From positions 1 through 45,547 of the forward strand of contig JAPLID010000149.1 in assembly GCA_026389285.1 (NCBI GenBank): a stretch of DNA of 45,547 nt, read 5' to 3'. The notes beneath the pieces were generated by a model. It searched no databases. It was given only the letters and a program-made list of their open reading frames with translations, and was not told where the DNA came from. This DNA comes from Cyanobacteriota bacterium (GTDB lineage: Bacteria; Cyanobacteriota; Cyanobacteriia; PCC-6307; Cyanobiaceae). A program made the position numbers and the translations under genes. Positions 14,857 through 20,053 of the stretch are shown here, piece after piece; the first letter of the stretch is position 1; each line of letters opens with the position of its first letter.

Positions 14857-16056
14857 TCAGTCGGGTCCGGTGGGCAGCGAGTCCGGTCCGGTCGGCTCGG
14901 CCGGCACCAGAGCCAGCCGCAGCAGGGTGCGGTCAATGCCCGCCAGGAAGGCCCAGTTCCCTTCACTGGGGGCCCAGGGCCTGGCCTCCAACTCGGCAGC
15001 CAGGGCCTCAAGCTGGGCGGCGGAACAGGCCACCGGCGCCTCGTAGTGGGCGGGAATCAGCCAGGCCAGATCCGAAAGGCCGGCCAGCTGGCGCAAATAG
15101 GCCAGCAACGCCGGCCTCGCCCTGGGAAACACCAGGCGCTCCAGCACGGCGGCCACCTGGATGCGGGGCGGCCCCGGTGGCAGCAAGATGTCCACGGCCT
15201 CTTGCCAGTGCTGGCGCCAGCGGAAGGGATAGAGCCCGAAATGAGCGCGGCGGCTGCGGCAGCCGGGCGCCAGGCTGGTGCGCAGCATCTGCAGCGGCGA
15301 CGCTACATCCAGGGGCGCGGGGCTCAGGTAGTTGGCGAACAGAACCAGCCGCTGCCAGCCGCGGCGGCGCCGTTCCGCGCTGTCGATCAGCGGTTCATCG
15401 CCCCGATCGCGGGCATGGAACAGCAGGGGGGTTGGATCGGCCTCAAACAGGGGCGGCGGCTCCGGGGAGATCGCCACCAGGGCATCGGTGAGCAACAGGG
15501 CGCCGGTGGCCCGGTCGAAACAGCCGTATTCCAGAAAGGTGCCCAACCCCAGGTTCAGCGGTCCCAGGGGTAGCCAGTGCAGCTGATCGGCGTGGGGCAG
15601 GCCATCGCTGCCCAGCACCCGGGTGCGGCCGGCCGGAAAGCCCAGCAGGCGGGGCGGCAGACGCAGCGGAAAGCTCCACTGGTGCGGCGTGATCCAGACC
15701 GCGGCCTCCGGAAAAGCCCGGGCCATGGCCGGCACCGGCAGCTTGTGCTCCAGCCCCGAGGCGGTCGGCAGCACGATTGTGCACACGGGGCCATGCAGGG
15801 CCTCCAGCCGCCGCAGCTGGGCCCGCACCTCGCCGGTGACCGCCACCGGGGCGTAAAGCATCAGGCCGTCGGCCACCTTGAGCACGGTCATGCGGATCGG
15901 CACCGCCACGTACCAGAACCCCTGCAGCTGCTCGAAACTCCAGATCCTCCCCGGCAGCAACTCCCGCACCAGGGTGCGGCGATGTCCGTAGGGATAAAGA
16001 GGCAACAGGGGCCACCAGGGCCAGCGCTGGTCCTGGGACGGAACGTCCTCGCTCAT
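14857..16056 (-). CDS. DUF4336 domain-containing protein
   Basis: A 399-residue protein of a cyanobacterial and plant family that resembles metallo-beta-lactamase-fold proteins, without a proven activity. The N-terminal part has WPWWPLLPLYPYGHRRTLV and IWSFEQLQGFWYVAVPIRM, then VLPTASGLEHKLPVPAMARA and FLEYGCFDRATGALLLTDAL, which recall the shape of the metal-binding segments in this family. The C-terminus has AWLIPAHYEAPV. The ATG at 16056 is chosen over the 16110 start because MSEDVPSQ leads directly into the conserved Trp/Pro region and leaves room for promoters shared with mntH. It diverges from mntH. Confidence 0.8.
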   Translation of the reverse strand: MSEDVPSQDQRWPWWPLLPLYPYGHRRTLVRELLPGRIWSFEQLQGFWYVAVPIRMTVLKVADGLMLYAPVAVTGEVRAQLRRLEALHGPVCTIVLPTASGLEHKLPVPAMARAFPEAAVWITPHQWSFPLRLPPRLLGFPAGRTRVLGSDGLPHADQLHWLPLGPLNLGLGTFLEYGCFDRATGALLLTDALVAISPEPPPLFEADPTPLLFHARDRGDEPLIDSAERRRRGWQRLVLFANYLSPAPLDVASPLQMLRTSLAPGCRSRRAHFGLYPFRWRQHWQEAVDILLPPGPPRIQVAAVLERLVFPRARPALLAYLRQLAGLSDLAWLIPAHYEAPVACSAAQLEALAAELEARPWAPSEGNWAFLAGIDRTLLRLALVPAEPTGPDSLPTGPD

Positions 16057-16108
16057 GACACCGGAGTGGTGGGGCGAACGCTGGCACCGGAGGACACCGG
16101 AATCTTCC

Positions 16109-16124
16109 ATACCAGCTCTGGTAT
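16109..16124. promoter_or_regulatory. Perfect 7-bp inverted repeat between the DUF4336 gene and mntH
   Basis: ATACCAG, two bases (CT), then CTGGTAT. It is centred about 60 bases from both starts in a divergent gap, the classic place for an operator. TGGTAT could also serve as a -10 box. No known cyanobacterial site (Fur, LexA, NtcA) matches it by eye. The regulator is unknown. Confidence 0.45.
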
Positions 16125-16184: not shown

Positions 16185-17630
16185 ATGGCCCGGGAACGTC
16201 CCACAGCGGCGAGCGGCAGCCCAGCCCCTTGCGCTGGACGGGGTCGTGCCCAGGTCGGTAGCCGCAAGCCATTCCCTAACCTTTCTTTCGCCTGCCTGAG
16301 CCTGCAGTTGCCAGCCAGACCCCCGGAGGATGGGCCGAGGCCATCCGGATCGAATGCGGTCTGGATACCGGCCGAAGGCTCGGGCCTGACCACCTTTCTG
16401 AAGGTGCTGGGTCCCGGCTATCTGGTGGCCGTCGGCTACATGGATCCGGGCAACTGGGCCACGGATCTGGCCGCCGGTTCGAGCTACGGCTACGAGCTGC
16501 TTTGGGTGGTGGCGATCTCCAGCCTGATGGCGATGCTGCTGCAGTCGCTCTGCTGTCGCCTGGGCATCGCCTCCGGCCTCGATCTGGCCCAGGCCTGTGC
16601 CCAGGTGCTGCCCGAGCCCCTGCGCCTGCCCCTGTGGCTGCTGGCTGAGCTGGCGATCGTCGCCTGCGACATCGCCGAGCTGGTGGGCAGCGCCATCGCC
16701 CTGCACCTGCTGCTAGGGCTGCCCCTGCCCTGGGGCGTCGCCCTGACGGCCCTCGACACCCTGCTGCTGCTGTTGTTGCAGCAGTGGGGCGTCCGCCGGC
16801 TGGAGGCGGTGGTCATCGCCCTGGTGGCTCTGATCGGTGCCTGCTTCGCGGTGGAGCTGCTGCTGCTGCAACCGCCCTGGGAGCAGGTAGCCCAGGGATT
16901 CATCCCCCAGCTCAACGGCTTCAGCGACGGCCGCCGGCTGTTCCTGGCGGCCGGGATTCTCGGGGCCACCGTGATGCCCCATAACCTCTACCTTCACTCC
17001 GCCCTGGTCAAGTCCCGCCGCTGGGAAGGGGAGCACCAGGCCCGCCATCAGGCCCTGTGGTTCAGCACCCTGGACACCCTGGTGGCCCTGACCCTGGCCT
17101 TCCTGGTCAATGCGGCGATTCTGGTGCTGGCCGGCGGCAGTTTTTATCAGCGGGGTGGAGAGCCGGTCGCTGATCTGAGTCAGGCCTATCACCTGCTCAC
17201 GCCGATTCTCGGTACGTCGCTGGCCAGCCTGCTGTTCGGCGTCGCCCTGCTGGCCGCCGGCCAGAGCTCCACACTCACAGCCACCCTGGCGGGCCAGGTG
17301 GTGATGGAGGGCTTTCTGCAGATCCGGCTGCCCGCCTGGCAGCGGCGGCTGCTGACCCGCTGCCTGGCCCTGGTCCCGGCCATGATCACTGTGATCCTGC
17401 TGGGGGATCGGGGAATCAGTCAGTTACTGGTGCTGAGCCAGGTGTTGCTGAGCCTGCAGTTGCCCTTCGCCGCGATCCCCCTGGTCTGGCTCTGCGGGCG
17501 CCCGGCGCTGATGGGGGATCTGGTGGCGCCCGCCTGGCTGCAGGCGCTTGGCTGGAGCAGCGCCGCTGTGATCGTGGTGATCAACGCCGGCCTGCTGATC
17601 TCCACCGGAACGGCCTGGTGGCACGGCTAA
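16185..17630 (+). CDS. mntH: NRAMP-family divalent metal transporter (MntH type)
   Basis: Proton-coupled import of Mn(II) or Fe(II) across the inner membrane. The 481-residue protein has about eleven hydrophobic segments. The metal-binding motif DPGNWATDL appears in helix 1 and MPHNLYLHSALVKSRRW in helix 6, both diagnostic for NRAMP metal carriers. The first 65 or so residues are Arg/Pro-rich and not helical. The family usually starts about 30 residues before FLKVLGPGYLVAVGYMDPGN, so a later start such as TTG at 16308 is possible and would leave a longer leader. Manganese is the likelier substrate in a photosynthetic cell, but that is inference. Confidence 0.92.
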   Translation: MARERPTAASGSPAPCAGRGRAQVGSRKPFPNLSFACLSLQLPARPPEDGPRPSGSNAVWIPAEGSGLTTFLKVLGPGYLVAVGYMDPGNWATDLAAGSSYGYELLWVVAISSLMAMLLQSLCCRLGIASGLDLAQACAQVLPEPLRLPLWLLAELAIVACDIAELVGSAIALHLLLGLPLPWGVALTALDTLLLLLLQQWGVRRLEAVVIALVALIGACFAVELLLLQPPWEQVAQGFIPQLNGFSDGRRLFLAAGILGATVMPHNLYLHSALVKSRRWEGEHQARHQALWFSTLDTLVALTLAFLVNAAILVLAGGSFYQRGGEPVADLSQAYHLLTPILGTSLASLLFGVALLAAGQSSTLTATLAGQVVMEGFLQIRLPAWQRRLLTRCLALVPAMITVILLGDRGISQLLVLSQVLLSLQLPFAAIPLVWLCGRPALMGDLVAPAWLQALGWSSAAVIVVINAGLLISTGTAWWHG

Positions 17631-17709: not shown

Positions 17710-17733
17710 AAAAAGCCCCCTCGGCTGAGGGGG
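17710..17733 (-). terminator. Intrinsic terminator of the psbA relic
   Basis: Read on the minus strand: CCCCCTC, loop AGCC, GAGGGGG, one C, then TTTTT. This is a clean 7-bp stem with a U-tract, 68 bases after the stop codon of the psbA pseudogene. There is no T-run on the plus strand, so it serves minus-strand transcription. It may also slow transcription coming out of mntH. Confidence 0.85.
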
Positions 17734-17801
17734 TCTGAGGACTGGATCAGATCGCATCCTGCAGCGATGGCCCCTGAGATCCGGGGGAATCAGGTCAGCG
17801 C

Positions 17802-18340
17802 TCAGCCGATCTGCGGGGCGCTGAGGGCCAGGGGGGGGAGCATAGATTGCCGTCGAAGACACACGCCACCCCCACCAGCAGGTGGAAGGGGGCGATCAGC
17901 AAGACAGCGAAGGTGGCCTACAGCGGAGCGCTGTAGGCCACGCAGATCCAGGGGCGCATGCCGAGGCGGTAGGAGAGTTCCCACTGGCGGCCCAGGTAGG
18001 CGGAGATGCCGATCAGGAAGTGGATGATCACCAGCGGATAGGGCCACCGTTGTAGAGCCACTCGTCGAGGCTGGCGGCTTCCCAGATGGGATAGAAGTGC
18101 AGTCCGATAGCGTTGCGGGAGGGAATGAGCGCTCCGGAGATGATGTTGTTGCCATACATCAGGCTGCCGGCTACAGGCCCCGGATACCGTCGATGTCGGC
18201 TGGGGGGGCGGCGATGAAGGCGACGATGAAGCAGATGGTGGCTGCCAGCAGGCAGGGGATCATCAGCACATCGAACCAACCGATGTCGATGCGGTTGTTG
18301 GTGGACCAGACCCACTGGCAGAAGCTGTCCCAGCTTCCGG
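17802..18340 (-). pseudogene. psbA: psbA pseudogene (photosystem II D1 protein), deleted and frameshifted
   Basis: About 540 bases show clear D1 similarity in pieces; an intact gene is about 1,080. Reading along the minus strand: [15 protein letters not shown], then [18 protein letters not shown] up to DGIRG, where one lost base (GAG to GG) brings a TAG at 18171-18173. The next frame continues with [32 protein letters not shown] and NGGP. Another lost base near 18040 shifts frame again to [20 protein letters not shown] and [14 protein letters not shown], then TAG at 17918-17920. After it TFAVLLI is joined to PFHLLVGVACVF, so most of D1 helices C-D is deleted. A further deletion leads straight to the C-terminus ALSAPQIG and stop. 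It cannot make D1; an intact copy must exist elsewhere. The terminator is preserved. Confidence 0.93.
17913..17941. repeat. 13-bp perfect inverted repeat inside the psbA relic
   Basis: GTGGCCTACAGCG (17913-17925), spacer GAG, then CGCTGTAGGCCAC (17929-17941). On the minus strand the first-read arm encodes the conserved D1 residues VAYSA and the second arm creates the in-frame TAG. The perfection of the arms suggests that one was copied from the other. Confidence 0.9.
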
Positions 18341-18664
18341 CCAAACCTTTCGGGCTGCCTACGGGCGGCTTCTCCCAGCGGATCAGCCGCGGATGTCGGA
18401 CTTGCAGCCAGCCGATTCAGCGGGCCAAGTCAATATCATCCCATGGATACTTTAGTGCGATGTCGAAACCAGAGCGGCGTATCAGCTGAGCGATGGATAA
18501 GGCCAATCGATAAATATATTCATGAATTTGTCTAAAGCAAGCTTGCTCTCCGCTTCCCCCAGGACTCGCCTGTCCGTTGATGCACGGTTAGAGGAAGTGG
18601 CCCACCAGCCGATTGGCGCCGGCGTGGAGTTCAGGGCTGCCCAGCCAACGGCGGCGTGTAGACC
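18341..18664. other. Gene-free stretch with an AT-rich core between the psbA relic and the DUF697 gene
   Basis: About 320 bases with no complete gene. The part 18430-18550 is much richer in A+T than the surrounding DNA and holds the 10-bp palindrome ATTCATGAAT and AATATATT. Two overlapping minus-strand frames without start codons look protein-like (one ends [11 protein letters not shown], another ends FIDWPYPSLS), which suggests a worn gene remnant or foreign DNA. I cannot name it. A promoter of the former psbA gene would also be expected here but is not clear. Confidence 0.4.
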
Positions 18665-20053
18665 TCAGGCCGGTGCCGCCTGCTGCTGCAGCCACTGCCG
18701 GCCCTGGTTCACAAAGCCACTCCAGTCGAGTTTTTCGCTCTCGGCCGCCTCGGCCACCAACAGGCTGGCCCGCCGCCGGATCCGTTCGAGGTCGGGCTGG
18801 CTGACCCCGCAGGATTCCGCCAGCACATCCGCCATCGCCCGGCCCACCACCCGGGTCAGGTAGGCCGCGCTCAGGGCTTGCACAGCCCCCGCCACCAGCC
18901 AGGTGGCGCCATGCAGCTTCAGCACCGCCATCAGCGCCTGAGCGCTCCATTCGACCAGGCCGAGGGCTAGGGCGGCGCGGGCCAGCTCCGTGGCGGCGGC
19001 GCGCAACTGCTCCAGGCTCCAGGGGCAGTCCCAGAGCTGGGCCATCTCCTGCAGCATCAGCCCATTGGCAATCGCCAGCACCACCAGATCAACACTGGGT
19101 AACGGTGAGGCGAACACACCCGCCGCCACGATCCACTGGGTTCGCTGCTGCAGACCTTGCCATTGGCTCCGCCGCAGCAGCTCCAGATCGGCCTGCCAGC
19201 GGCCGTGCAGTTGCTCGAATGTGCGTAGGGCGGTGGCCTTGCGCAGCCCCTGATCCGGGCGCGCCAGCCACAGGGCCAGGGGCTCGAGGGCCTGGGCGAG
19301 GGTCTGCTCAGCGCCGTTCCAGAGGATCACCCGCTCGGGTTCCAGGCCCGGCCACTGGCAGCTCAGCTCCGCGAGCAGTTCGCTGCGCTCGCGTGGCATC
19401 GGCACCTGGATCAGCAGCCAGATCGGTTGGCTGGAGCCCTGGGATGGACCGCTGCCCCGGGATTGCAACCAGAGCAGATCGGCGGCGCTCAGGGGCAGAT
19501 GCAGGTGGAACAGCAGGCCATCGGCACGCTCCAGGGCCAGGGGCCAGCGCCAGTCCGGGCTAAGGCTCGGCAGGGGTTCGCCCCAGTGAAGGCAAAGGGG
19601 CCGCTGGCCGCGCAGGGCCTCGACAAAGCGGAGTTGCAGCTCGGCGGCGGGCAGCTGGCAGCCCGCCAGGGCCAGGGCCAGCTCCTGGCGCTCCAGGGTG
19701 GCGCGCAGTGCTGCCAGCTCGGCGCGACGAAACGCCAGGCCCGGCCCGGCGTCGGGATCCAGCCGTTCGAACTGGCCGATCACGCCATCGCAGCGGGCGA
19801 TCCAGCCGTCGATGTCCAGGGGCAGCGCCGGCAGCAACCGTCGCCGCCTCGACAGCAACCACCAACCTCCAGCCAGGGCCCCGAGCCCCAGCAGCGATCC
19901 GCCATCGACATGGAGCAGATGGGTCACGGCGTCGCTCGCCAGGAGACCGGCAGCGGCCAGAACGACCGGCCGGCGCCAGAGGGGAGCGGCAGGAACGGCT
20001 TCAGGCAGGGCAAGCAGTGCCGCTGAAACAGGGGAGGAATCCAGGCGGGTCAC
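18665..20053 (-). CDS. DUF697 domain membrane protein
   Basis: A 462-residue protein with a GTG start. Two hydrophobic segments lie near the N-terminus (PVVLAAAGLLASDAVTHLL and LLGLGALAGGWWLLS), followed by Arg-rich residues. A middle region has helices and LLIQVPMPRERSELLAELS, which looks like a degenerate GTPase-type fold without a P-loop. The C-terminal DUF697 region contains TQWIVAAGVFASPLPSVDLV and AYLTRVVGRAMADVLAESCG. DUF697 proteins are often found beside or fused to dynamin- or Era-like GTPases at the membrane. No GTPase motif GxxxxGKS is present here. Function unknown. A hairpin lies just upstream of the start. Confidence 0.75.
   Translation of the reverse strand: MTRLDSSPVSAALLALPEAVPAAPLWRRPVVLAAAGLLASDAVTHLLHVDGGSLLGLGALAGGWWLLSRRRRLLPALPLDIDGWIARCDGVIGQFERLDPDAGPGLAFRRAELAALRATLERQELALALAGCQLPAAELQLRFVEALRGQRPLCLHWGEPLPSLSPDWRWPLALERADGLLFHLHLPLSAADLLWLQSRGSGPSQGSSQPIWLLIQVPMPRERSELLAELSCQWPGLEPERVILWNGAEQTLAQALEPLALWLARPDQGLRKATALRTFEQLHGRWQADLELLRRSQWQGLQQRTQWIVAAGVFASPLPSVDLVVLAIANGLMLQEMAQLWDCPWSLEQLRAAATELARAALALGLVEWSAQALMAVLKLHGATWLVAGAVQALSAAYLTRVVGRAMADVLAESCGVSQPDLERIRRRASLLVAEAAESEKLDWSGFVNQGRQWLQQQAAPA

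Follow-up and report, generated by a model that had tools for sequence, protein, structure and literature searches.

Marine Synechococcus species carry one psbA gene encoding the D1:1 isoform of the photosystem II protein D1 and two to five encoding D1:2, the isoforms being exchanged with light, according to the part of PMC3441193 available. The same part of that paper gives glutamine at residue 130 as the mark of D1:1 and glutamate as that of D1:2. D1:1 is described as the more efficient form and D1:2 as the more resistant to photoinhibition (PMC3441193; PMC7393227, both in the sections available).

The window analysed here, 45,547 nt in length, is the whole of one contig (C178) in a draft genome of 3.0 Mb that is divided between 223 contigs and is 88.5% complete. 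It contains a psbA gene whose status as a pseudogene is solid. We consider that the locus is a dead psbA, the decayed ortholog of a single-copy D1:1 (Gln130) gene, and that it suggests that selection for D1:1 has been repeatedly relaxed or reversed; we would place the probability of this reading at about 0.88. The lesions were mapped against the intact psbA that occupies the corresponding position in a near relative, G010; this gene and those of other relatives were taken as the alignment reference because no psbA of the source genome has been assembled whole. The features of the locus are the following, in window coordinates.

14857–16110, minus strand: DUF4336 protein, a homologue of which (by eye) lies directly after DUF697 in G001, G005 and G051
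16185–17630, plus strand: Nramp-type metal transporter (Pfam), the downstream neighbour, also found in G010
17710–17733, minus strand: terminator-like hairpin and T-run (stem 17733–17716, T-run 17714–17710), with a counterpart in the G010 alignment
17802–17836, minus strand: psbA piece 5, the last ~11 codons, with the TGA stop at 17804–17802
17837–17893, minus strand: psbA piece 4, codons about 194–211 with a 3-nt insertion, ending at a ~409-nt deletion in a C-run
17894–18046, minus strand: psbA piece 3, codons about 109–159, with Gln130 and an in-frame TAG, ending at a 102-nt deletion
17920–17918, minus strand: the in-frame TAG, formerly a serine codon, in the D1 frame of piece 3
17992–17967, minus strand: GRQWELSYR motif with Gln130, in piece 3
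18047–18180, minus strand: psbA piece 2, codons about 64–108, ending at the second single-base loss, 18047/18046
18181–18340, minus strand: psbA piece 1, D1 codons about 11–63, ending at a single-base loss, 18181/18180
18499–18546, minus strand: upstream (promoter/leader) remnant, of which ~48 bp are still like G010
18665–20053, minus strand: DUF697 protein of 462 aa (Pfam), the usual upstream neighbour of D1:1 psbA

The alignment puts the five pieces of the psbA wreck in order along the minus strand, between 18340 and 17802. An earlier note, made from the letters alone, had described a ruined psbA in five D1-like pieces with two single-base losses, an internal TAG, two larger deletions, a C-terminal end and a terminator, and each of these has now been located against G010. 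Two of the pieces match the D1 profile TIGR01151, with E values of 2e-24 and 4.6e-26 (profile search; three places on the window contig). Their scores stay below the full-length cut-off of 596 bits, which is what a wreck should give. At the DNA level there is a match of 88% identity over 457 query bases with E = 1.7e-162, so that a chance resemblance to psbA is excluded.

The first large deletion, of 102 nt, lies at about 17894/17893, and in G010 its ends are CCCTTC direct repeats exactly 102 apart. The second removes ~409 nt and ends in the C-run at 17838–17831, and the 3-nt insertion lies near 17872. The ATG and the first ~10 codons are no longer recognizable. Codons 160–193 and about 212–347 are deleted, ~511 nt being gone in all, and 531 of the 1074 coding positions of G010 survive, counted from nucleotide 31 onwards. 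With two single-base losses, the TAG and two deletions there is no open frame for the whole protein. Most of the D1 ligands of the manganese cluster, we take it, fall within the deleted parts, and thus the remnant is not a working D1. The terminator-like hairpin folds weakly (z = −1.63), and its counterpart in G010 rests on the alignment only.

Could the frame breaks be errors of sequencing, or the locus a misassembly between psbA copies? The assembly is a draft, and the psbA repeat family does break contigs in this genome. Yet the flanks are contiguous and syntenic with those of G010, the order Nramp, psbA, DUF697 being common to both with psbA intact in G010, and the open reading frames next to the wreck are unbroken at 417, 481 and 462 aa. 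Moreover, the wreck groups with the D1:1 genes of its relatives and not with D1:2, and about 511 nt are gone. Such an artefact is therefore very improbable.

The changes that are private to the wreck look neutral, and purifying selection on it is lost. Counted only at sites where the relatives agree, which lowers the synonymous count of the window more than those of the controls, the private changes of the window are 24 nonsynonymous and 6 synonymous; two of the 24 lie in codon 194 by the deletion junction and may be effects of alignment. The corresponding numbers on five intact branches are 4:11 (G010), 3:12 (G014), 3:3 (G016), 0:1 (G042) and 0:2 (G049), summing to 10:29, and the difference from 24:6 is significant (Fisher, 9e-6). 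A neutral ratio of 2.6–3.1 to 1 is expected, and that of the window is near or above this. The private changes are spread over the three codon positions as 12:10:8, with no bias (p = 0.67). Branch lengths give a similar picture. The branch to the window is 0.080 at codon positions 1 and 2 and 0.248 at position 3, a ratio of 0.32, compared with ratios of 0.05–0.17 on the longer intact branches (G010, G014, G016, G050 and six outgroups). The branches of G042 and G049 have almost no length at positions 1 and 2, and the ratio of 0.47 on the intact branch of G047 (0.003 to 0.006) reflects one or two changes, too few for use.

A shortened functional product, or a regulatory RNA made from the remnant, would be one reason for the survival of the terminator together with some of the upstream region. 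This is exceedingly unlikely. It is opposed by the lack of codon-position bias and by the ratio near or above neutrality; moreover the shortened form is present in none of the relatives read at the site, which were checked for it and leave the reading as a wreck unrefuted, and no Rfam family reaches its gathering threshold in the window. The window also contains no tRNA.

The same data bear on the age of the loss, which the earlier note called recent. Assuming near-neutral evolution at position 3 and an intact-like ratio on the early part of the branch, branch-length arithmetic gives ~0.05–0.07 substitutions per site after the loss. Recency stands to this extent, as a relative date only: some 5–7% neutral divergence, accumulated over a final stretch that is very roughly between a fifth and a quarter of the window branch. 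The conserved terminator had been offered as its sign, and a surviving element of 24 nt says little. That odd residues arose after loss of function is mostly borne out by the 24 to 6 ratio, IDIGWFDV comprising Y28D and G33D, both private to this genome. On the other hand STNNR, previously taken for a product of decay, consists of residues that are normal for D1:1.

Which psbA was lost? The wreck has glutamine at position 130 (GRQWELSYR), as in D1:1, and its surviving residues are of the D1:1 kind. In a DNA tree of 24 rows it groups with D1:1 copies with support of 99/98, and within its own clade with 87/88; D1:1 orthologs of the same genus are 85–89% identical to it in DNA. A DNA pattern for the Gln130 motif (GRQWELSYR) matches 28 of 42 genomes of the genus, once in each and never twice. 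In 27 of these the motif belongs to a psbA next to DUF697; in the window the match is the pseudogene. DUF697 is itself matched in 42/42 genomes, with an ortholog in 41, that of G031 being shortened by a run of N. By its sequence, then, the wreck is orthologous to the Gln130 (D1:1) psbA, a single-copy gene that usually adjoins the DUF697 gene.

Cyanophages also carry psbA-like sequences, and 512 phage records match the wreck. All 512 lie in the 60–80% identity band, the 20 matches listed being 74.5–78.5% identical, as against 85–89% for the D1:1 genes of the same genus, and an intact psbA occupies the same chromosomal site in G010. There is only a vanishingly small chance that the fragment was left by a phage, and we rejected such an origin on the weaker match compared with host orthologs (the DNA tree comprised host copies only).

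The remaining psbA sequences of the genome are pieces on contigs C141, C89, C101, C60 and C10, all ending at contig edges. The N-terminal pieces begin MTATIQQRSGASAWNQF or MTTTLQQRQGVSAWNQF, as do D1:2 copies, and all five contigs carry what look like D1:2-type genes, none of them whole. No whole D1:2 psbA is assembled in this 88.5% complete draft, as in several other drafts surveyed, and a second Gln130 copy may conceivably lie unassembled elsewhere in the genome. As assembled, the pseudogene is the only match to the Gln130 pattern. The earlier note regarded the loss as that of one redundant copy. Many of these genomes do have several psbA copies, and losing one may be tolerated, so that one of a set of interchangeable genes might have been lost by simple redundancy with the set of isoforms unchanged. 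This appears unlikely, since the lost copy was the sole Gln130 gene in the genome as assembled, and other lineages have lost the same type. It was not an interchangeable copy; it was the single-copy Gln130 (D1:1) ortholog, and the other pieces look D1:2-type.

How widespread is the loss? The DUF697 site was compared in two overlapping surveys, and a comparison of the syntenic site, as the earlier note had advised, shows that in G010 the psbA flanked by the Nramp and DUF697 genes is intact. Among the 42 genomes of the genus, a Gln130 psbA lies at the site in 27 and a Glu130 copy in one (G040). The 5′ part of psbA is cut by a contig end in four (G002, G015, G016 and G034), and the contig ends before psbA in one (G046). 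A remnant or wreck is found in four (G000, G018, G009 and, with doubt, G031), psbA is lacking at the site in four (G001, G005, G051 and G045), and the remaining genome, G041, lacks an ortholog of DUF697 and has just a weak match to it. The remnant in G009 is only 23 aa at 65%, and in G031 (L206/L108) a run of N is followed by a C-terminal psbA piece with a probable frame break, which we have kept as unsure. In G001, G005 and G051 the DUF4336 homologue stands where psbA and Nramp were not found (by eye).

The second survey took the best 80 of 348 DUF697 loci. In these 80, Gln130 is seen in 51 (38 near full length and 13 cut by the contig end further on), and residue 130 is hidden by contig ends in 12, ten with the 5′ part only and two ending before psbA. 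There is no psbA at the site in 12, two of them Prochlorococcus, and remnants are found in two, plus the unsure L206. The last two are Cyanobium FGCU52, with Glu130, and L202, in which psbA is displaced by 4.7 kb. Cyanobium N.Huapi 1H5 (L176) is one of the genomes in which D1:1 is kept. No information comes from G046/L169 and L216, whose contigs stop short of the expected start of psbA. Sites without psbA include those of T1B-Tous, FACHB-13342, C. usitatum Tous, CS-1330, CS-1331 and casp40. A ZIP transporter directly follows DUF697 in T1B-Tous (Pfam) and, by eye, in FACHB-13342, C. usitatum Tous, CS-1330 and casp40; the gene in that position is ZnuA-type in CS-1331 (Pfam) and, by eye, in both Prochlorococcus. 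One further locus, L222 (CALPNT020000107.1), is titled Bifidobacterium breve; it is a picocyanobacterial contig with DUF697 and a D1:1 psbA, and the bin looks mislabelled.

The closest kin of the window are seven genomes in a clade with support of 100/100, in which psbA is kept or cut by contig ends. Some kin of the window carry lake names in their records. On a DUF697 tree of 81 rows the pattern of presence and loss needs six changes of state, which as read from the drawn tree fall on the window; on G001/G005/G051/G018; on G009/G031/G045; on the T1B-Tous/usitatum/CS-1331 group; on FGCU52; and on Prochlorococcus. The tree, built from a single gene, has long branches, and a count of changes does not in itself show which way they went; how many losses were independent is therefore an estimate. 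The remnants and the wide spread of the intact gene indicate that the changes are losses and not gains. The loss had been treated earlier as that of one copy in one genome. We infer by parsimony that at least three further lineages of the group have lost this locus too, by decay or by deletion, which suggests that selection for D1:1 has been relaxed or reversed repeatedly.

DNA patterns for both the Gln130 and Glu130 kinds were then run on 26 genomes. Pattern search found Gln130 nowhere in the 13 site-losing genomes outside Prochlorococcus (the unsure L206 among them), and Glu130 in seven of them; the other six matched neither kind, and the absence is weak in those 6/13, where psbA is present only at contig ends or as short fragments. 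Exactly one Gln130 was found in 8/8 genomes that keep the gene, including the displaced copy of L202. The same search gave no Gln130 in FGCU52, and neither pattern matched in two Prochlorococcus drafts and L169. Of 20 psbA pieces read from losing genomes, 18 look D1:2-type, one belongs to a divergent class and one is the unsure L206 remnant.

Several other psbA sequences came to light in these genomes. A divergent D1 class of about 78–81% identity, with Glu130, WIAVAYS and GSFSDALPLG, is present in many genomes of the genus (L024, L153, L154, L239), and a gene with two internal TAG codons at G049:C81:1391-2458 is probably of this class. The copy at G036:C15:85236-85851 runs in two overlapping frames with a TGA, and is possibly a second wreck of a different copy. 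In the complete genome of SynAce01 (G071:C1:2611962-2613037) one psbA copy is spread over two frames, by a frameshift of the strain or a sequence error. Finally, a psbA-like stretch of 45% identity at G043:C1:250928-251587 contains six TGA stops and one TAA, and is either an old wreck or a chance frame.

In FGCU52 (G040) the copy at the site has D1:1-like ends, while residues 121–158 are those of D1:2, including Glu130. A strict +1/−1 segment score gave no significant result (permutation p = 0.63). A likelihood scan, chosen after that score, finds D1:2-like sites at 19/42 within nucleotides 267–662 and at 8/98 elsewhere, a result equalled in 2 of 1000 shuffles. The only Glu130 pattern besides the site copy is in a divergent gene, so that there is no matching D1:2 copy with which the donor could be compared. 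Gene conversion at this site is likely from its sequence, and if it took place would have led by a second path to the same end as loss of D1:1.

At the loci examined, a metal transporter often comes next after the D1:1 site, its family varying between Nramp, ZnuA/MntC-type and ZIP, as assigned by Pfam for three loci and by eye for the others (L015, L016, L191, L213, window 16185-17630); G001/G005/G051 and G018 depart from this. Since the manganese cluster is carried by D1, the linkage may not be due to chance. At L092 (G042:C50:43591-43686) there is an Nramp remnant of 32 aa with an in-frame TAG, about 2.7 kb from the D1:1 psbA. A gene that looks MntC-type follows that psbA, and Nramp too seems to have been lost nearby.

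A course of events can be proposed for the window. Once freed from selection, psbA would have accumulated point changes. The 102-nt deletion could have arisen by slippage between the 6-base direct repeats (CCCTTC), with the second deletion occurring in the C-run and the start region being lost. Photosystem II would then be built from the remaining Glu130-type (D1:2) copies, and the light-driven exchange of D1:1 and D1:2 would be gone. More broadly, we lean towards the view that several mainly freshwater lineages have independently dropped D1:1 and run photosystem II on D1:2 alone, with no exchange of D1; a state with D1:2 only is probable, judged from incomplete draft assemblies. On that reading the window might represent the loss half way, with G018 and G009 further on and the others complete. 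Cells that have lost D1:1 would have the resistant form of D1 at all light levels, and one guess is that bright, mixed surface water favours this. We found no report of D1:1 loss in freshwater picocyanobacteria in the titles and abstract openings listed from the open-licence literature, which does not establish priority, and PMC11316352 mentions none of five terms such as psb and photosystem II.

Repeated loss of D1:1, if true, would constitute a natural experiment on the purpose of D1 exchange. The genomes concerned include records that are not marked as metagenome-assembled (C. usitatum Tous, T1B-Tous, CS-1330, CS-1331 and FACHB-13342, and also FGCU52, which would have taken a different route), and they can be compared with close relatives in which D1:1 is retained. 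Placing the psbA wreck of one draft genome has thus been worthwhile, since what was lost is an isoform and not a spare.

The gene of the window resembles the D1:1 psbA of Synechococcus (e.g. SynWH7803_0784; the part of PMC3441193 available) in having Gln130 and being single copy, and differs in being broken and evolving neutrally. In the concerted evolution of cyanobacterial psbA genes, as described in the available part of PMC6053082, copies replace one another; the copy at the FGCU52 site, which looks partly D1:2, is alike in this, whereas the window has undergone decay and not conversion. Prochlorococcus, with one D1 isoform that is D1:1-like (PMC3441193, same part), shares a set reduced to one type. 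Yet it is the mirror image, for Prochlorococcus has Gln130 and no D1:2, while the group of the window has lost Gln130 and seems to keep D1:2.
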